32,992 nucleotides of DNA from Candidatus Marinimicrobia bacterium CG08_land_8_20_14_0_20_45_22 (GTDB lineage: Bacteria > Fidelibacterota > UBA2242), in the NCBI GenBank assembly GCA_002774355.1, contig PEYN01000119.1, forward strand, positions 1 through 32,992, in the 5' to 3' direction. The notes below the pieces were generated by a model. It saw only the letters and a list, made by a program, of their open reading frames with translations. It was not told the DNA's origin and made no database searches. Both the position numbers and the translations under genes were made by a program. Positions within the stretch are counted from its first letter, which is position 1; each line of letters starts with the position of its first letter. Positions 1-27,217 of the stretch are shown in pieces.

Positions 1-88
1 AGACCGTCTCTTCTTCGAGATGAACTTCCAGCGCCGGCAACCCTTCGGGCGGCTGGTAAATAATGATTTTGTCGTTGGTTTCTATCAT
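1..88 (-). CDS. RhuM-family protein, N-terminus only (runs off window)
   Basis: The ATG at 86-88 opens a frame that stays open to the window edge (29 codons). Its product begins MIETNDKIIIYQPPEG and continues with an LEVHLEEETV segment, the N-terminus typical of RhuM-family ('virulence RhuM') proteins. These are commonly found inside type I restriction-modification operons, and their biochemical role is not settled. The start follows the stop of the HsdM remnant with no gap, and a GGTGG-rich stretch upstream may serve as ribosome binding site. It is a close paralogue of the truncated copy at 189-482, matching it through most of the first 29 residues. Whether this copy is full length cannot be seen. 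Confidence 0.6.
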   Translation of the reverse strand, partial: MIETNDKIIIYQPPEGLPALEVHLEEETV

Positions 89-181
89 TTATTCACCACC
101 ATTTTCACAGTAAATGCCGTCGTCGCGCAGGACATTGCAGTAATTCCAGAGTTTCGATACTAATGAAGAAGCGTCGGTCAT
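89..181 (-). pseudogene. HsdM N-terminal remnant (type I restriction methyltransferase)
   Basis: The 30-residue frame starting at ATG 179-181 reads MTDASSLVSKLWNYCNVLRDDG, then unrelated residues and a stop. The KLWNYCNVLRDDG motif is the hallmark start of type I methyltransferase subunits (HsdM), which normally run to about 480-520 residues and continue with a GDYVEQLTYLLFLK-like stretch. Here similarity ends right after RDDG and none of the SAM-binding or NPPF catalytic region follows, so this is a decayed 5' end. It lies 7 nt after the truncated RhuM and abuts the second RhuM start. The identification rests on a short but very characteristic motif. Confidence 0.6.
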
Positions 182-188
182 AGTATTC

Positions 189-482
189 TCAATTGTTTTT
201 ATCAAATAATTTAACCACATGAATTTGACCAATTGTTGCATCTTTTGCAACAGTTGGATAATCTGAAGATAGTGCAAAATTTGCACATACTGAATCCTTC
301 CAGAGTTCACGTGTCTTAAAGATATTGCTGATATGTTTTATAATCATGCTTCGTTCGATACCGAAGAGGCGGAAAATCTGCTTCTGATTCAACCAGACAA
401 TTTCTTCTTTTAATCGCATTTCCAGCACCCGTAAGTCGTCGGGCGGCTGGTAGATGATGACCCGGTCATATTTTTCTATCAA
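189..482 (-). pseudogene. truncated RhuM-family protein
   Basis: A 97-residue product with the RhuM N-terminal pattern: an IIYQPPDD segment, a VWLNQKQIFRLFGIERS helix-turn-helix-like segment, then IIKHISNIFKTREL and SVCANFA. In the family this is followed by a DGKxY...YNLDxIIxVGYRV core and a total length near 330 residues. Here the sequence diverges from the family after about residue 70 and ends at residue 97. It is therefore either a truncated relic or a short stand-alone DNA-binding piece. It lies 11 nt after the membrane protein at 494-1015 and 7 nt before the HsdM remnant. Recognition of the family is fairly firm; the pseudogene status is inferred from length. Confidence 0.6.
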
Positions 483-493
483 CTATTCCCCTA

Positions 494-1015
494 TTAGCTT
501 GCTTTAATATTGCCTTCTTTTTTTCTTTTTTTTACGAATTTAATACTTTTGATACCGTAGTCTATAAGTATCATAATAGTTATGGAAAGTAAGAGAAATA
601 GTGCTGTAAGTAGTTCCTCCACTCCGTCAATAGTTCTTTTAGTTTTATCAGCCCAATCTTTCTTCCAATTATTGAATGATGTTTTATCTATAGATTTTTC
701 ATTAATGAGTGGTACGATTAGCCCTGAAAATTTGCTACCACTTCTACGTTCGCAAAGGTCTTCTACAGCCCTTGTAAATGCAAGTAACTCTCCTTTATGA
801 ATATTATCTATTTCAGCAGGATGACGTTTTGATACGCCAAAAAAATTCTCACCGAAAAAACCATCATTATACAAGATAGCAGCAATTGTAAAATCACCTT
901 GTCTCATATATAAAACCTTTGCATGATGTGAATCACTAGGGTAGCGGGTTTTTGATTTTCTAACTTGTCGATTGAATAGTGTCATTTCGTCGAAGTTCAA
1001 TTCCCTATATGTCAT
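494..1015 (-). CDS. small membrane-anchored protein of unknown function
   Basis: 173 residues, family not recognised. The ATG at 1013-1015 is preceded by a strong AGGAG with 5-nt spacing, so it is very probably expressed. Residues 1 to about 125 are soluble and include a YMRQGDFTIAAILYNDGFFG segment and a GVSKRHPAEIDNIHKGELLAF segment, resembling small proteins that carry a 'GVAKR.P.D' motif in phage and defence neighbourhoods. One transmembrane helix follows (TALFLLLSITIMILI, near residues 136-155), then a very basic tail (KFVKKRKKEGNIK). That predicts single-pass anchoring with a positive cytoplasmic end. It sits among type I restriction relics, so a defence-related role is conceivable but unproven. 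The following gene begins 11 nt further on. Confidence 0.6.
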   Translation of the reverse strand: MTYRELNFDEMTLFNRQVRKSKTRYPSDSHHAKVLYMRQGDFTIAAILYNDGFFGENFFGVSKRHPAEIDNIHKGELLAFTRAVEDLCERRSGSKFSGLIVPLINEKSIDKTSFNNWKKDWADKTKRTIDGVEELLTALFLLLSITIMILIDYGIKSIKFVKKRKKEGNIKAS

Positions 1016-1126
1016 GTTTACTCCTAAATCACTATGTTTCTCTGTAAATCAAGATAGTTCATACTATTTTGTATTGAAGTACCTTAGACCTTCTTATTCT
1101 TACCGGTAAACAAATGGTTTAATAAA

Positions 1127-1342
1127 TTACCTTGAATTTTTCTTCTCCCCCTTGATCCATTCCAGCAACTTCTCGGCCGGCTCCATCTGTTGAATCTTTA
1201 TAAGCCTGATGTAATTCCTCTTCCTCTTATTTGCTTTCATTCCTCGCTTAATTACATGCCAATTACATGACGATTGATCATAAATAACGCCATATATTGT
1301 GTATACCATCTCGCTCTGTCTATATATCGTTGCTCTTTGCAT
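1127..1342 (-). pseudogene. small ORF ending in an HsdS-like C-terminal tail
   Basis: 71 residues from ATG 1340-1342, without a good ribosome binding site. The last 19 residues (MEPAEKLLEWIKGEKKNSR) match the usual end of type I specificity subunits, xxEPAxxLLERIRAEKxK, which also ends the fragment at 2818-3072. The first 50 residues match nothing I recognise. I read it as a second HsdS 3' end fused to unrelated sequence after a deletion. It begins 42 nt after the AlbA_2 gene. A genuine small protein cannot be excluded. Confidence 0.35.
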
Positions 1343-1384
1343 TTAACTAATCATCCCGATTATATACCTGATACATAAAAGATG

Positions 1385-2824
1385 TCATGCCCAATAAGGA
1401 ATATATTTTCGTTTATTGGATTTGTTCTCAGGATCCGCAACTTTGATAAATTTTGATTTCAAAGTATCACTTATTATTCTTGAAGCAGTTGGATAATTCT
1501 GCTCCTTAATTCCGAATCGTTCGCGCAAAGTGGCATTTGACATGAAATTCCTGGATACCCATCTCAAGCAACAATGCTGGTAGCAAGCTCTTATTTTTGA
1601 ATTTTTATCCATCTCTCTAAATTCCTTCGATGCAAATAGAGTAACCCGAGTAAATTGTTCTTCAGTGTGAAACTCAGGCGAAGGAAGCTGATAAGTTTCA
1701 ATTGCAACAATTGCACGGTCGATACCGCTACCTCTTTCTTCACAGATATTCATCCGTCTCATGAGTGATGCCAGAACTTCATTCCGTGATCTCGGAGCAT
1801 GGTCAATGAAACGATCCGTATCTATTAATGACTTTCCGGGATTAGTAAATTCAATCCGGTTCTTAAAGATTTCGATCATTGGTCCGCTTCCGGTTACTGA
1901 AAAGTTCTGATGAATAATTGCGTTAGCAACAAATTCACGGATTGCTACTTTTGGATAGAGAGTCCTGTCAACACGGAGGGCGTCTTTAATAATTTCGTTC
2001 GTCGGTAATTGATCGCATATCCAATTTACCAAACCCTCAAAGCCCACGGCATATCCTATCTTGCCGGGTTGTTCTTTAAAAGCGTTAAGACGGGAATCAT
2101 CCTTATAAAATATTACTCGGACACATTTCCGATTAAGTGACCCAAAATAGGATATATTCTTAGCGAACAATATCGCACCAAGGTTTGTGATATTAAAACC
2201 GTCGCCGGATTTAAAAATGATTTTTTCTTCTATCAAATTTTCTAAAATACCATTTCGGTTATCGGGCAAGGGCAATTTCAGCAATTCAAATAATCCCGGA
2301 TAATCTATCTTTGACAGTACTTCATCCGATGATTGATTCTCAAGCGCAATACCGGATTCAAAAGAAGAGAGTTTTTTCTTACTCCAAATCTTGCGCTCTT
2401 TTTCCGGATAGTTCGCAAGTAGTTGCTTTGTTTCACCTACTCGGATATATGCAGTCCTGCTGAAATTGACGGGTGTATTAATAGTTGCATCAACTCTAAA
2501 CAACACTACTGATTTTCCGTCATAATCATAATCGAAAATGCGAAAATCAACACGGGGAGACAGCAATCTTGCTAACCATGGTTCTAAGTCTTCATTACCT
2601 TTGCCTTTTGCATGTCTGGGCTTGAATGTAGTCCCAATCATTTCACGTGTTTTATCATCAATACCAAATACCAGATAACCAAATTCTTTATCATGTAAAC
2701 AAGCGCCATTACTGAGCGCTGAGAGGTATTCTCCAATTATCTGAGGTTCGGCATTATCGACTTTAAACTCAATCCATTCAAGTTCTCCACAACCACGTAA
2801 TTCATCAATTAATTGCCTTAACAT
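1385..2824 (-). CDS. AlbA_2 / GHKL-like ATP-binding protein of a restriction island
   Basis: 479 residues, apparently intact. The N-terminus (about 1-135) is an AlbA_2/Schlafen-like domain beginning with the acidic ELEWIEFK stretch (residues 14-21) and including the YLVFGIDDKT strand. The C-terminal half carries a GHKL/HATPase_c_4-type ATP-binding region, with REFVANAIIHQNF at 296-308 (E297, N301) and EERGSGIDR at 362-370. A likely winged-helix segment follows near 420-465. Proteins of this build are often annotated as ATP-binding proteins or putative transcriptional regulators and commonly ride in type I restriction operons; their activity is not established. The ATG at 2822-2824 overlaps the stop of the HsdS fragment by 7 nt, indicating translational coupling to the former hsdS. 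Confidence 0.85.
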   Translation of the reverse strand: MLRQLIDELRGCGELEWIEFKVDNAEPQIIGEYLSALSNGACLHDKEFGYLVFGIDDKTREMIGTTFKPRHAKGKGNEDLEPWLARLLSPRVDFRIFDYDYDGKSVVLFRVDATINTPVNFSRTAYIRVGETKQLLANYPEKERKIWSKKKLSSFESGIALENQSSDEVLSKIDYPGLFELLKLPLPDNRNGILENLIEEKIIFKSGDGFNITNLGAILFAKNISYFGSLNRKCVRVIFYKDDSRLNAFKEQPGKIGYAVGFEGLVNWICDQLPTNEIIKDALRVDRTLYPKVAIREFVANAIIHQNFSVTGSGPMIEIFKNRIEFTNPGKSLIDTDRFIDHAPRSRNEVLASLMRRMNICEERGSGIDRAIVAIETYQLPSPEFHTEEQFTRVTLFASKEFREMDKNSKIRACYQHCCLRWVSRNFMSNATLRERFGIKEQNYPTASRIISDTLKSKFIKVADPENKSNKRKYIPYWA

Positions 2825-3072
2825 TTTTTCTTCTCCGCTCTTATTCTCTCCAGCAACTTCTCTACCGGCTCATCGTTCGGGTCTTGCTGTACCAGTTTTC
2901 CCTCGAACGCCCGCTTCTGGATGCTCTGCCGCAGGCGCTCGGCCTGCTTAAGAGAAGTCTCGACTGTCTTCTCCATCTCATCCGCAACCGACAAGCGCCA
3001 CTCAACTTCGAAGATTATTTGTTGTTGTTCAGGGGAAAATTGCAAATTTGTAGTCGAACCGACATCACTCAT
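2818..3072 (-). pseudogene. HsdS C-terminal fragment (type I specificity subunit)
   Basis: 84 residues that match only the last conserved part of type I specificity subunits: PEQQQIIFEVEWRLSVADE, EKTVETSLKQAERLRQS, the KRAFEGKLV motif and the terminal LLERIRAEKKK. HsdS is normally about 400-600 residues with two target-recognition domains; both are missing. The frame closes at a stop at 3097-3099, so nothing of the 5' part remains in frame. The long central helix alone cannot give DNA specificity. It overlaps the AlbA_2 start, keeping the arrangement of an intact hsdS-cargo operon. I infer a 5' deletion that removed most of hsdS and probably other genes between it and 3394. Confidence 0.75.
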
Positions 3073-3393
3073 AGAAAACCTGATCTTATAACTCTTTTAA
3101 ACATGCCATTTATCGTACATTTAAAAATGCAATCCCAAAGTAATGAAAAATGTCATCAGAGCCAACGAATTTATTTGTGGGACGAATAAGAAATGGAATC
3201 TGCCCGCCGCCGGCGGCTCACTCAGGCGCCCGACCATCCGACCGCGTTTGCTTTCCCCGAAGGAACATACCTGAAGGGACTCGTCTGTCGGACAGAATGA
3301 AATAACAACCGACGATGTTGGATATCTCCGGAATATCTATATTAAAAAAATTCGAAAGGGATTTTCTGGTTTGTTCAAAACCATTGATGGACT
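3073..3393. other. noncoding junction with GC-rich palindromic patch
   Basis: No gene is seen in these 321 bases between the HsdS fragment and the EIIA gene. Around 3194-3296 the base composition rises sharply compared with the AT-rich flanks. This stretch contains two perfect short palindromes, GCCGCCGGCGGC near 3198 and TCTGTCGGACAGA near 3284, plus a TTCC..GGAA stem. It does not fold into a recognisable tRNA cloverleaf. It marks the border between the restriction island and the ATPase operon and may be a mobile-repeat remnant or a folded 3' end. No function can be assigned. Confidence 0.35.
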
Positions 3394-21674: not shown

Positions 21675-22865
21675 TTAGTGATTGTTGTCACTGGTCATGA
21701 TAAAGATCGATTTGCCATCAAAACTCTTGTACTGCGGACGCAAACGGTCTGGATTATAGTATTGTTCGATGTCAACATTCTTCTTAAAACTCGTGACAAC
21801 ATCCAACGGAATGTTTCCGTATATCCCATTTCTTATGTTGACCAATAAACCTGATTTTTTCTTGAGAATCAGATCAAGCGCGAGATTCCCGTAAACCATC
21901 GGTACGATTGAGTCCAGCGAGTCTGGATCGCCGCATCTTACTAAATAGCCAAGTTTCTGGCTGATGGATTCGATTTTTCTGCCTCTGTTATATTTTGGAG
22001 ATAACTCCTTCAACCTCTGGGCAACAACTTCGCCAATTCCACCGAGTTTCTTGTGCCCATACGCATCCTTATCATCCGATTGAAAAACCATCTGTTCTTG
22101 TTCGGCGATCATAGCGCCTTCTGAAACCAAAACGACTGAATAATGGCTTGGATTTGTGTACCGGTCTTCGACTAAAAGTTCTGTCAGTCGTTCCATCGAA
22201 AATTTATATTCCGGAATAACACATCGGTTAGCGGCGCCCGCCATCGTTGGAACGATCGCCGAAAATCCAGCATAACGGCCGAAAACTTCAATGACTAAAA
22301 AGCGTTCATGCGAACCGGCAGAAGTTCGAAGAGCGTGTGTCATTTCCAGCGTCCGAGTCACACAGGTGCTGAAACCGATGCAATAATCCGTTCCGGGTAC
22401 ATCATTATCCATTGTCTTTGGAATGCCAACGACCTTAAAACCGGTATTGTGAAGTGTCACGCCGTAGCTGAGCGTATCGTCACCGCCAATCGGTATCAAA
22501 TAATCGAGTCCTAGAAAATCCAAGTTTTTCAAGACATCGGGAGTCAAATCGTTGATCTTGTCGTTATATTTATCTTTCAGGTGTTCGGGAACGACGTCTT
22601 TCGCCACGTGGCTGGGACGAGTTCTCGACGAATGTAAAAACGTGCCGCCCGTACGACCGATTTTATTGACGATATTTTCGTCTAATTTCAGATAATTGGC
22701 ACTATTATCGGCGTCTTTATCACGAATAACGTCGATCAGCCCGGCCCAGCCCCTACGAATGCCGATGACTTCAAAACCTTCGTGAATAGCTCTCAGTGTA
22801 ACGGCGCGAATGGCAGGATTCAATCCCGGTACATCACCGCCGCCAGTTAAAATTCCAATTCTCAT
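21675..22865 (-). CDS. pfp: PPi-dependent-type 6-phosphofructokinase
   Basis: 396 residues of the phosphofructokinase A family, phosphorylating fructose 6-phosphate in glycolysis. The N-terminal phosphoryl-donor loop is GILTGGGDVPGLN. Two diagnostic positions indicate pyrophosphate rather than ATP: GGDD at 127-130 (an Asp where ATP enzymes have Gly) and PKTMDND at 149-155 (a Lys at 150 where ATP enzymes have Gly). TRTLEMTHALRTSAGSHERF and EVFGRYAGF are the substrate-binding segments. The enzyme would work reversibly and spare ATP, in line with the fermentative genes nearby. ATG is preceded by AAGGAG at 8-9 nt. Donor specificity is predicted from residues, not shown. Confidence 0.92.
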   Translation of the reverse strand: MRIGILTGGGDVPGLNPAIRAVTLRAIHEGFEVIGIRRGWAGLIDVIRDKDADNSANYLKLDENIVNKIGRTGGTFLHSSRTRPSHVAKDVVPEHLKDKYNDKINDLTPDVLKNLDFLGLDYLIPIGGDDTLSYGVTLHNTGFKVVGIPKTMDNDVPGTDYCIGFSTCVTRTLEMTHALRTSAGSHERFLVIEVFGRYAGFSAIVPTMAGAANRCVIPEYKFSMERLTELLVEDRYTNPSHYSVVLVSEGAMIAEQEQMVFQSDDKDAYGHKKLGGIGEVVAQRLKELSPKYNRGRKIESISQKLGYLVRCGDPDSLDSIVPMVYGNLALDLILKKKSGLLVNIRNGIYGNIPLDVVTSFKKNVDIEQYYNPDRLRPQYKSFDGKSIFIMTSDNNH

Positions 22866-22988: not shown

Positions 22989-23227
22989 TATTGCAAATAT
23001 GGATGTTTGATAACCGCAGTGAAGCCGTAAGACAATTGATCTTGTACCGATGAATCGATTTCTTAATCATCTTTAAGGATGAGAAATATGAAAACCGCAA
23101 CCGAATTTCTTGGGAAAATCTTCTATATCGATGTCTTGCTTCTGACTATGGTTTTTGCAAATGAACCGGTAAGACAGTTCACAACCGAAGATCACTGGAT
23201 AAAAGTACAGCCATAAGTGATATCTGG

Positions 23228-24118
23228 ATGGATTGCAACCGGATGAATGGCGTCTTCCGGAATAACGGCACATGGTTCTATGATAACGTATTGGGAGATT
23301 GGGGCTTGGAATGGCCAAAAGGTTCCGGACTCAGCCCGATTTTCGCGGCCGGCCAATTTCTCTGCGCCGAAATCGACGGCGAAGTCCGTGTCGCTGGCAC
23401 CCAACACTCCGCCACCGAATATCAGCCCGGCATGATCCTCTCGCCTGACCATCCCGATGATCCAAGCGATTCAAAATACAAGTGGTACGAATTACAAAGC
23501 AACGGAACCGGCGACTGGACAAATTGGCCGTCTGCCACCCAAGGCGCGCCTTTAGATGAAGATGGCAATCCACTTTTGATCGGTGACCAGACGATATTCA
23601 GTGTTTGGAACGATTGTAGAAATGATAAATATGGTTTTGATACGCTCTCATTAAACGCGGAACTCTATCAAACCGCATGGGCTTATGACCGCACCGATGC
23701 TTTTGGCGATATGATCTTTCTGAAATGGACGATCGCGAACAAAAGTGGAAAGACATGGGAAGATACGCACTTCGCGATTTGGGCAGATCCCGATGTCGGA
23801 AACGCCGGAGATGATTTAGCCGGTTGCGATTCAGCACTAAACATTGGGTTCTGCTATAACAAGAATAATGATGATCAAAATTATGGCGAGGCACCTCCGG
23901 CTGTCGGTTTTAAAATTTTACAAGGCCCCATCGTACCCTCCGCAGACGATACGACTTATCTTCCCGACGGAACAATAATACCAGATAAAAAAAGCATAAA
24001 AATGACAGCATTTTTAAGCCCGATAAAATACGACAGCCCTCAAGGAACGCCCGATAACGCACAGGATGTTTATTATCTCTTGCACGGTCAATGGCAGGAC
24101 GGTTCGAACATTACTTAA
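23228..24118 (+). CDS. open N-terminal segment of the broken secreted protein
   Basis: 296 residues from an internal ATG (IWMDCNRMNGVF) to the premature TAA. The true coding sense extends upstream of this ATG (STAISDIW), so 23228 is not a natural start: no signal peptide and no ribosome binding site. The segment has tryptophan- and glycine-rich extracellular character, with NGTWFYDNVLGDWGLEWPKG near its start. Confidence 0.45.
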   Translation: MDCNRMNGVFRNNGTWFYDNVLGDWGLEWPKGSGLSPIFAAGQFLCAEIDGEVRVAGTQHSATEYQPGMILSPDHPDDPSDSKYKWYELQSNGTGDWTNWPSATQGAPLDEDGNPLLIGDQTIFSVWNDCRNDKYGFDTLSLNAELYQTAWAYDRTDAFGDMIFLKWTIANKSGKTWEDTHFAIWADPDVGNAGDDLAGCDSALNIGFCYNKNNDDQNYGEAPPAVGFKILQGPIVPSADDTTYLPDGTIIPDKKSIKMTAFLSPIKYDSPQGTPDNAQDVYYLLHGQWQDGSNIT

Positions 24119-24160
24119 GGTGGCGATGGAACAGACCAATACAACCCACCGACGCATTAT

Positions 24161-26245
24161 ATGTTTTCCGGCGATCCCGAAACCTCAATAGGATGGTTGA
24201 ATACTCAGTGGCATGATCGTCGTATCTTTTTATCCAGCGGCCCATTCATATTGGAACCGTGGACAGATTCGGATGGTGACGGCGTTGCTGAATTCGGCGA
24301 GCCGGGCATTCAGGAAATTGTCGCTTGTGCTCTCGTTGCACGTGGACTGAATAACTTGAACAGTGTTACCAAACTCAAGCAAATCAGTCATCTTGTCCAA
24401 ATGGCTTATGACCACAATTATCAGTTAGGCGTTCCACCTAAATCTCCTAACGTAACCGTCAGTGAACTACCCAATGAAATTCTTCTCAGTTGGGACGGAA
24501 AATCAGAGTACAATTCTGATAGAAGCCCGTATGAATCGACCGACCCGCTTATAGCAATGGCATTTGGGGATACAGTTATCACAAGCGGCTACGTTACACA
24601 TGTCGTTGATGACTCAACCTACAATTTTTACCAGTATGTCCTCTACCAATATTCAGACGAGACTGGCAGTGATCCGGTCGAAGTAGATACGTGGAGCATT
24701 GGGAAAAAATACTCCTATAATCCGCATCAGGCGCGCTTTTTCAGAATTCTATGCAATAAAAATCCAAAAGTCGGAAACATCGACTATCAATTAGTCAATG
24801 GTAAAACATACCATTATGGCCTTGTTGCCGAGGTCTTTCTGAAAGACGGTAATCCGGAAGTAATATCGAGCCGACCAACGATTGTTTCCGTAACACCGCG
24901 ATACTCACCTGGCGTCAGATATGAGGCTTCCTTCAATGATACACTGGAAGTTAAGCATACGGTAACAGAAACCGGCAAAACGCCCAGCGATGGTACGACG
25001 ACTGTTTGGGTAGTTGATCCTTCCAAGATGACCGGATTGGATTATACGGTTTCCTTTAACTCAGATTTAACATGGAATTTAACTACTTCGAATGGCGATA
25101 CCGTTCTTGCTGACCAGACGAACCAGACCGGTAACAACGCTTACAATCTCACTGACGGTTTGATGGTGAAAATTGAAGGCGGCGAACCGGGGATAAATTT
25201 GAATATTCCCGGACCGTTTGGCGATATACCTGGTTTTAGTGGATTTGGAATTACCGGCGGTAACAAATGGTTTAGCTGGCCTGTAAACTGGGGACTTGAG
25301 ACCATGGGTGGATCCTTCGGAAACGGATTCATGTTCTTCGGAAGCGATGTGGAGCCTTCCGGGTATGTCGATGTTGAGATCCGCTTCGCTGGCATTGGCG
25401 CTTCAGGTTGGCCTCAGCCGGATTCAACTGCCGGCGCGTTAATGGTAGTCAGTAAAGCCGCCTATCCCGAAAGATGGCAGAAAGCCGTAGTCTATTGGGG
25501 ACCTGGTTATGATGTGCAATCGACATTAGGCGATGTACCATTTACAGTATGGGATACGGAAAGCATTCCTCCGCGTCAACTAAAGGTTGCCTTTGTCGAA
25601 GAGCCGCGTTCCGACCGCGATGGCGCCGCCAATCTCATCTGGGATATGGGTTGGGGCGACGATCATGTTTTTGGCGCTTATGGAGGTCGTGAATATTTAT
25701 TCATTCTGAATGAAACTTACGATGAGCAGTACACTGAGTATTTGAATGGCAACAAAGACGGCACCTATAATGGCGTCATGTATGTCGGCGGATGGGGAAT
25801 GAGATCTGCCAGCCGTCCTTTCTTACAGGATGCTTTCGAATTTCAAGTTTATGCCATCAATCCCAACTCGCCATATGATCTGTTCACATTCACGGCGCCA
25901 GCGGCGGCCATACCCACAACTGAATTTCTAAAAAAAGACATGAAGAAGATCAATGTCGTCCCAAATCCTTACTATGGTTTTAGTTCCGAGGATATCAACA
26001 GTAATGGCTACCGCGTCCGATTTACTTTTTTGCCGGAAAAATGTACGATAAAAATATTTACTATCGCCGGAACTATGGTTCGCAAGTTGGAAAAGAATGA
26101 TCCGACGACGCCATTTCTCGATTGGGATTTATTGAATTTCGGGGGAATGGCGGTTGCGAGCGGAGTTTACGTTTATCACGTCGATGCGCCGGGAATCGGC
26201 GAAAAGGTTGGTAAACTTGCAGTATTTCTTCCTAACCTTAAGTGA
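24161..26245 (+). CDS. open C-terminal segment of the broken secreted protein, with sorting domain
   Basis: 694 residues from an internal ATG (MFSGDPETSIGW) in the same frame as the preceding segment, separated only by the TAA at 24116-24118 and 14 codons. It holds the calcium-type loop DSDGDGVAEFGEPG, beta-rich middle domains, and the last about 100 residues with the secretion/FlgD-like Ig fold ending VYVYHVDAPGIGEKVGKLAV. No ribosome binding site marks the ATG, so separate translation is unlikely. Confidence 0.5.
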   Translation: MFSGDPETSIGWLNTQWHDRRIFLSSGPFILEPWTDSDGDGVAEFGEPGIQEIVACALVARGLNNLNSVTKLKQISHLVQMAYDHNYQLGVPPKSPNVTVSELPNEILLSWDGKSEYNSDRSPYESTDPLIAMAFGDTVITSGYVTHVVDDSTYNFYQYVLYQYSDETGSDPVEVDTWSIGKKYSYNPHQARFFRILCNKNPKVGNIDYQLVNGKTYHYGLVAEVFLKDGNPEVISSRPTIVSVTPRYSPGVRYEASFNDTLEVKHTVTETGKTPSDGTTTVWVVDPSKMTGLDYTVSFNSDLTWNLTTSNGDTVLADQTNQTGNNAYNLTDGLMVKIEGGEPGINLNIPGPFGDIPGFSGFGITGGNKWFSWPVNWGLETMGGSFGNGFMFFGSDVEPSGYVDVEIRFAGIGASGWPQPDSTAGALMVVSKAAYPERWQKAVVYWGPGYDVQSTLGDVPFTVWDTESIPPRQLKVAFVEEPRSDRDGAANLIWDMGWGDDHVFGAYGGREYLFILNETYDEQYTEYLNGNKDGTYNGVMYVGGWGMRSASRPFLQDAFEFQVYAINPNSPYDLFTFTAPAAAIPTTEFLKKDMKKINVVPNPYYGFSSEDINSNGYRVRFTFLPEKCTIKIFTIAGTMVRKLEKNDPTTPFLDWDLLNFGGMAVASGVYVYHVDAPGIGEKVGKLAVFLPNLK

Positions 26246-26314: not shown

Positions 26315-27217
26315 TTACTCGCTTAGTAAAATCGCGACCGCGATCGAGTTCAGTTTTTCTTCCGGTTTGTCCGAGCGCGAAAGCAGGATGATCGGTACCT
26401 TTGCACCGACGACTACGCCGCCGACTTTTGCGCCGACAAGCAATATCAGCGCCTTGATCAGCGCATTTCCGCAGGTCAGATTCGGCACCAGAAAAATATC
26501 CGTCTCTCCCGCGACTTTACTGACTAAGCCCTTTTTCTCGGCGGCATTCCGCGACAGCGCAACATCCATCGCGATCGGTCCTTCGACGATAGCGTCGCCG
26601 AATTCGCCCGCTTCGCCTAATTTTTGAAGTTCGGCCGCATCGACGGTTTCGAGAATCTTTGGATTGACATTTTCGATTGGACAAATGATCGATGCGTTAG
26701 GTCTTGGATTTTCCAATCGTTCCGCCACCCCGATGACATTTTTCAAAATCGCTTTCTTCGTTTCCAAATCCGGTTGGATGTTCAGTCCGCCGTCCGTCAA
26801 TAAAATAAGCCGCGGATACGCAGACGCCTCGGCAACTGTCACGTGACTCAGTACATCGTCTTTCCGCAGACCGGTTTCTTTGTTCAAAACGGCCTTCATG
26901 AGAATCGGCGTCGAAACGTGCCCTTTCATCAGGATTTCTGCTTTTCCTCCCCTGACCAATGCGACGGCGCGAGCGGCGACTTCTTCATCGCCTTCAACGT
27001 TCACGATATTTTCATTTTTGACCGCATAGCCGATCTGTTTGGCAATCGCTTTGATTTTGTCGGCATTACCAACCAACAAAGCATTCGCAATTCCGCGCTC
27101 ATCGACTTCTTTGATAGCGCTCAGCACGCTGAAATCATCCGCCATCGCCACCGATATTGTTTTTTTCCGTCTGAGGTTTTCGACCGCTTTAAATATTTCG
27201 TCAAATGTCCTGATCAT
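26315..27217 (-). CDS. ptb: phosphate butyryltransferase
   Basis: 300 residues of the phosphate acetyl/butyryltransferase family, butyryl type by length and sequence. It moves an acyl group between CoA and phosphate (butyryl-CoA to butyryl-phosphate). Typical segments are EILMKGHVSTPILMKAVLNK, GLRKDDVLSHV, LTDGGLNIQPDLETKK and DIFLVPNLTCGNALIKAL. The ATG has GGAG 5 nt upstream. It begins 15 nt after butyrate kinase, its partner in making ATP from acyl-CoA. The chain length used in vivo (butyryl, isobutyryl or others) cannot be told from sequence. Confidence 0.93.
   Translation of the reverse strand: MIRTFDEIFKAVENLRRKKTISVAMADDFSVLSAIKEVDERGIANALLVGNADKIKAIAKQIGYAVKNENIVNVEGDEEVAARAVALVRGGKAEILMKGHVSTPILMKAVLNKETGLRKDDVLSHVTVAEASAYPRLILLTDGGLNIQPDLETKKAILKNVIGVAERLENPRPNASIICPIENVNPKILETVDAAELQKLGEAGEFGDAIVEGPIAMDVALSRNAAEKKGLVSKVAGETDIFLVPNLTCGNALIKALILLVGAKVGGVVVGAKVPIILLSRSDKPEEKLNSIAVAILLSE

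Follow-up and report, generated by a model that had tools for sequence, protein, structure and literature searches.

The window, the whole 32,992-nucleotide stretch of DNA that was analyzed, is contig C119 of a MAG (G000; 2.63 Mb in 213 contigs, 97% complete) from an uncultured Neomarinimicrobiota (SAR406) bacterium. A twice-broken reading frame is located between a phosphofructokinase-like gene and a phosphate butyryltransferase-like gene. As read from the sequence, the gene spans 3158 nt from ATG 23088 to the stop codon at 26243–26245, which is one nucleotide short of a multiple of three (3n-1). The initial frame terminates at TAA 23212–23214. The mature frame is already open well before ATG 23228, stays open up to TAA 24116–24118 and reopens from 24119 to 26242. 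Inspection, and alignment to the N-termini of homologues in genomes G001 and G006, shows that a signal peptide is present. The nearest named relative is in a Candidatus Neomarinimicrobiota MAG (JAGNGI010000072.1). The features of the locus are as follows.

21675–22865, minus strand: phosphofructokinase-like gene, syntenic neighbour in G001 (L042)
23088–23177, plus strand: 5′ piece with the start codon and signal peptide (MKTATEFLGKIFYIDVLLLTMVFA-NEPVRQ) in frame 1, from a gap-free alignment with the G001 N-terminus (MKTIIKSVGKIFWIDVLFLTIVFA-NEPAKQ)
23178–23184, plus strand: lesion 1, a net -1 frame change, likeliest place of the indel from the BLOSUM crossover and DNA alignment
23185–24115, plus strand: coding piece A, read in the downstream frame and covering the first third of the mature protein, with 81% aa identity to G001:C241 and 64% to G006
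24116–24118, plus strand: lesion 2, an in-frame TAA aligned with a Glu codon of G001, G006, G001:C72 and G016
24119–26245, plus strand: coding piece B, the middle of the protein and its C-terminal part as far as the natural stop at 26243–26245, matching G006 with 66% identity over 709 aa
24545–25926, plus strand: middle segment, by identity comparison without orthology to the G001 gene at this locus
25934–26221, plus strand: C-terminal domain with weak similarity to FlgD and to the C-termini of the T9SS proteins PorZ/PorU
26315–27217, minus strand: phosphate butyryltransferase-like gene, syntenic neighbour in G001 (L039)

G001 is the comparison genome of the same genus, and two of its contigs, C241 and C136 (loci L042 and L039), cover the locus. 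C241 matches the window from position 22272, in the phosphofructokinase gene, to 24544, and C136 matches from 25927 through the phosphate butyryltransferase gene and further. The two contigs overlap inside the gene by 280 bp with 98.9% identity. The G001 orthologue at this locus has a frame that is uninterrupted across both lesion sites. In addition, both open pieces of the window gene can be aligned over their full length with uninterrupted frames of about 1045–1077 aa in G006, G016, G017, G021 and several G001 paralogues, and this alignment to intact relatives exceeds chance.

The original prediction placed two lesions in this gene, and both are present in the sequence at sites that G001 reads through. 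The second was described as a TAA codon in otherwise intact sequence, which is borne out: the frame is open on both sides, and the codon in register with 24116–24118 is Glu in G001, G006, G001:C72 and G016 and another sense codon in other relatives. The first had been proposed as the loss of one nucleotide in the A run at 23201–23204. The net -1 change agrees with the 3n-1 span, but the position does not hold. The BLOSUM frame crossover against G001 is best at 23181–23184 (best scores of 225 and 223 over 23178–23184), whereas position 23199 scores 209, and in the DNA alignment to L042 the gap falls directly after CAG 23175–23177. The residues encoded by the downstream frame ahead of the A run, H-N-R-R-S-L-D-K-S, align with S-N-G-K-M-L-E-K-S of G001. 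The two share the motif N-x-x-x-L-[DE]-K-S, and the Leu and Lys residues (L-x-K) are also found in five more relatives. The comparison of frames with G001 thus rules out an indel in the A run and puts it about 20 nt upstream.

The gene encodes a member of a secreted-protein family of about 1050 aa. Its members have a signal peptide, a long body for which mostly strands are predicted, and a C-terminal domain of about 95 aa. The body of family members has no Pfam match above cut-off. The C-terminal domain of the window gene matches NF052228 with an E-value of 3.5e-6, which is below the cut-off, and weak matches among family members are to the PorZ C-terminus (7 of 10) and to TIGR04183 (5 of 10). 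None of the scanned members has a sorting-domain model above the curated cut-off, the nearest being weak CHU_C, TIGR04183 and PorZ matches. No sequence relative was found in the PDB. An AlphaFold model of the G006 homologue has a mean pLDDT of 52, and its top PDB match, PorZ, has a TM score of 0.10–0.13 and is not interpretable. The family resembles type IX secretion cargo (Por_Secre_tail PF18962 / TIGR04183, PorV) in its signal peptide, its PorZ/PorU-like C-terminal domain and its PorV-like operon neighbour, but differs in that all of its sorting-domain matches are below cut-off. The MAG encodes an intact PorU-like sortase (NF033707, 749.8 bits against a cut-off of 420, in a 1168-aa open frame) and about 61 Por_Secre_tail domains, thus the secretion route itself looks present.

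The usual operon order is TonB-receptor gene, family gene and PorV-like gene, and is found in G006, G001:C40, G017, G021 and G016. Domain content was tested on the G006 copies, where the TonB-dependent receptor carries a carboxypeptidase-regulatory domain and the third gene is PorV-like. The arrangement is similar to SusC/SusD-like pairs, as the family gene in these five cases directly follows a CarboxypepD_reg / Plug / TonB-receptor gene. However the partner is not SusD by sequence, a PorV-like gene comes next, and the window copy has neither neighbour: it is a solitary paralogue without an adjacent TonB-receptor or PorV-like gene. The closest TonB-receptor and PorV-like genes of the MAG have identities of only 37% and 39% to the G006 operon partners, compared with 84% and 72% in G001, and no close relatives of the G001:C40-type partners were found in G000, which is a draft MAG. 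What emerges is a so far unnamed family of secreted proteins in Neomarinimicrobiota whose operon context (TonB-receptor / PorV-like) is conserved and whose copies seem to exchange segments. Another genome of the phylum has several family copies on a single contig, spread over about 25 kb (G055:C1, positions 37107–61463), and a genome search shows a TonB-receptor-like frame with two internal stop codons (TGA and TAA) at G000:C158:22923-23729.

The apparent exchange of segments concerns the middle of the window gene. Outside of this region identity to the G001 copy is 81% in the N-terminal third and about 78–95% near the C-terminus. The middle segment (window 24545–25926, compared with L042 2272–3456 and L039 1–453) displays only 18–47% identity to the G001 copy and mostly 54–81% to G006, and the middle of the G001 copy resembles the G001 operonic paralogues. 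That the middle third differs in type between same-genus copies at the same locus suggests a segment exchange, and replacement between paralogues is the simplest reading of the mosaic. This reading is independent of the lesions.

Both coding pieces are under strong purifying selection (omega about 0.1–0.2 against G001). Piece A compared with G001 has a dN of 0.12 and a dS of about 0.95, giving an omega of 0.13. Omega is 0.06 for piece B against G006, where dS is saturated, and 0.2 for the C-terminal part against G001. Seven intact neighbouring genes compared with G001 have values of 0.02–0.18, a range to which piece A and the C-terminal part come close. In a three-species codon model the omega of the window branch (0.14) is not different from that elsewhere (0.10; 2*delta lnL of about 0.4), and no faster protein evolution was found on this branch. 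Two lesions in 3.1 kb correspond to about 0.005 (0.003–0.007) neutral substitutions per site since inactivation, with a 95% upper bound of about 0.02, assuming an indel-to-substitution ratio of 0.05–0.2. The dS to G001 is about 0.6–1.1, where the figure is approximate for several pairs because the optimiser kept t at its start value of 1.00. The age of inactivation is therefore small beside the divergence from G001, and given the strong selection on both pieces the inactivation, if real, is very young.

These properties are those of a young bacterial pseudogene: there are few lesions, coding constraint is still visible, and the frame is broken where the orthologue of the same locus is intact. 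Most pseudogenes in Salmonella have one small lesion or a few, and premature stops are frequent among them (PMC2916853). The window gene is like the young Salmonella pseudogenes (Kuo & Ochman 2010, PMC2916853) in its few small lesions, its intact same-locus sister orthologue and its accessory function, but differs in that it is known from a MAG consensus alone. It is probably an ordinary pseudogene, very recently inactivated in the lineage (or dominant strain) that the MAG represents. Of the readings offered in the original prediction, that of a very young pseudogene is supported by the intact syntenic orthologue in the same genus, the strong purifying selection, the lack of rate acceleration and the presence of only two lesions.

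The proposed course of events starts from a solitary paralogue of what may be a family of C-terminal-sorting-domain proteins. One inactivating change would be a 1-nt frameshift directly after the signal peptide, and the other a Glu-to-stop substitution 0.9 kb downstream. Either one by itself would abolish the full-length product, since the frameshift stops translation about 41 codons in and the downstream pieces are without a signal peptide. The gene may have become dispensable once its TonB-receptor and PorV-like partners were lost, and may now be drifting toward deletion. That dispensability followed loss of the partners is held with moderate confidence, the loss being read from their absence from the draft MAG. 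A possible, if doubtful, refinement of the pseudogene reading, rather than a full rival to it, is that the population is polymorphic, with both intact and broken alleles present, and that the MAG happens to capture a broken strain. The very young age is consistent with this, as are the three differences in the 280-bp overlap of the G001 contigs inside the gene.

The main rival is that one or both lesions are consensus errors, from low coverage, mixed strains or uncorrected long reads, and that the gene is intact in the organism. Assembly errors produce false pseudogenes, and published work shows many such calls to be artefacts (PMC11017572). The source is a MAG in 213 contigs, and the coding pieces are without other decay. 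An audit that set about 670 kb of the MAG against about 1.07 Mb of G001 and covered 137 orthologue pairs with 49,449 codons shows nominally more interrupted genes in G000, with about six credible cases including the window gene, than in G001, with two, out of about 140. The other cases in G000 are as follows.

L075:19353 (G000:C18): Por_Secre_tail secreted protein interrupted by a single in-frame stop
L220:7154 (G000:C57): related Por_Secre_tail secreted protein with a single in-frame stop
L092 (G000): N6-DNA methylase, interrupted
L084 (G000): Na/Pi cotransporter, interrupted
L058 (G000): sugar-nucleotide/glycerophosphotransferase (nucleotidyl/glycerophospho-transferase), interrupted

Three further candidates (L147, L144 and L118) were left out of the count, as they look non-coding or seem to differ in their start sites. 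All of the approximately five other broken genes are accessory and no housekeeping gene is broken among the 137 pairs, a small sample. Random consensus errors should strike housekeeping genes as well, thus the distribution favours real gene loss. Also against an error, the lesions comprise a base substitution and an indel that is outside of any long homopolymer, and there are two of them here but one in each of the other interrupted genes. The last point is not decisive alone, since the audit background rate gives about five double-lesion genes expected by chance in a 2.6-Mb genome. Consensus error is on this evidence an unlikely explanation, although it carries more weight than the other rivals.

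One of these is the phase-variable switching at the A run that the original prediction had offered, here taken as slipped-strand mispairing that turns the gene on and off. The gene probably encodes a surface protein and a run of four A does exist at 23201–23204, but a contingency tract would have to be longer. The frame change (crossover 23178–23184) is about 20 nt upstream of it and not inside a long simple repeat, which leaves switching at the run unsupported, and the downstream TAA, which such switching could not cure, keeps the gene off in any frame. Phase variation is thus highly improbable. Equally so is programmed recoding, in which frameshifting after the signal peptide and readthrough of TAA would give a full-length protein. 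The frames flanking both sites are indeed conserved as protein; however the relatives all have a continuous frame and a sense codon, neither lesion feature occurs in any of them, and no known RNA family was found in the region by Rfam. Recoding was rejected. Somewhat less remote, but still very unlikely, is that the locus represents a solitary mosaic copy within a multigene family of surface proteins that swap their middle segments between paralogues by cassette-like gene conversion, silent broken copies serving as a sequence reservoir; if so, the broken gene would keep a donor role. For annotation, the pseudogene reading means that the locus should be entered as a probable recent pseudogene (or marked for a consensus-error re-check) and not as a phase-variable locus.

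At the start of the window, positions 1–3300 on the minus strand are an accessory island with short leftover frames. The frame at 192–482 has no Pfam match and looks RhuM-like. The minus-strand frames at 2821–3072 and 1130–1342, also without a Pfam match, are taken here to resemble the tails of restriction specificity subunits. They end nearly alike, with EKLLE-R/W-I-R/K-A/G-EKK. A gene with SLFN/AlbA_2 and RecG-C-type ATP-binding regions at 1385–2824 on the minus strand is flanked by the leftover frames.
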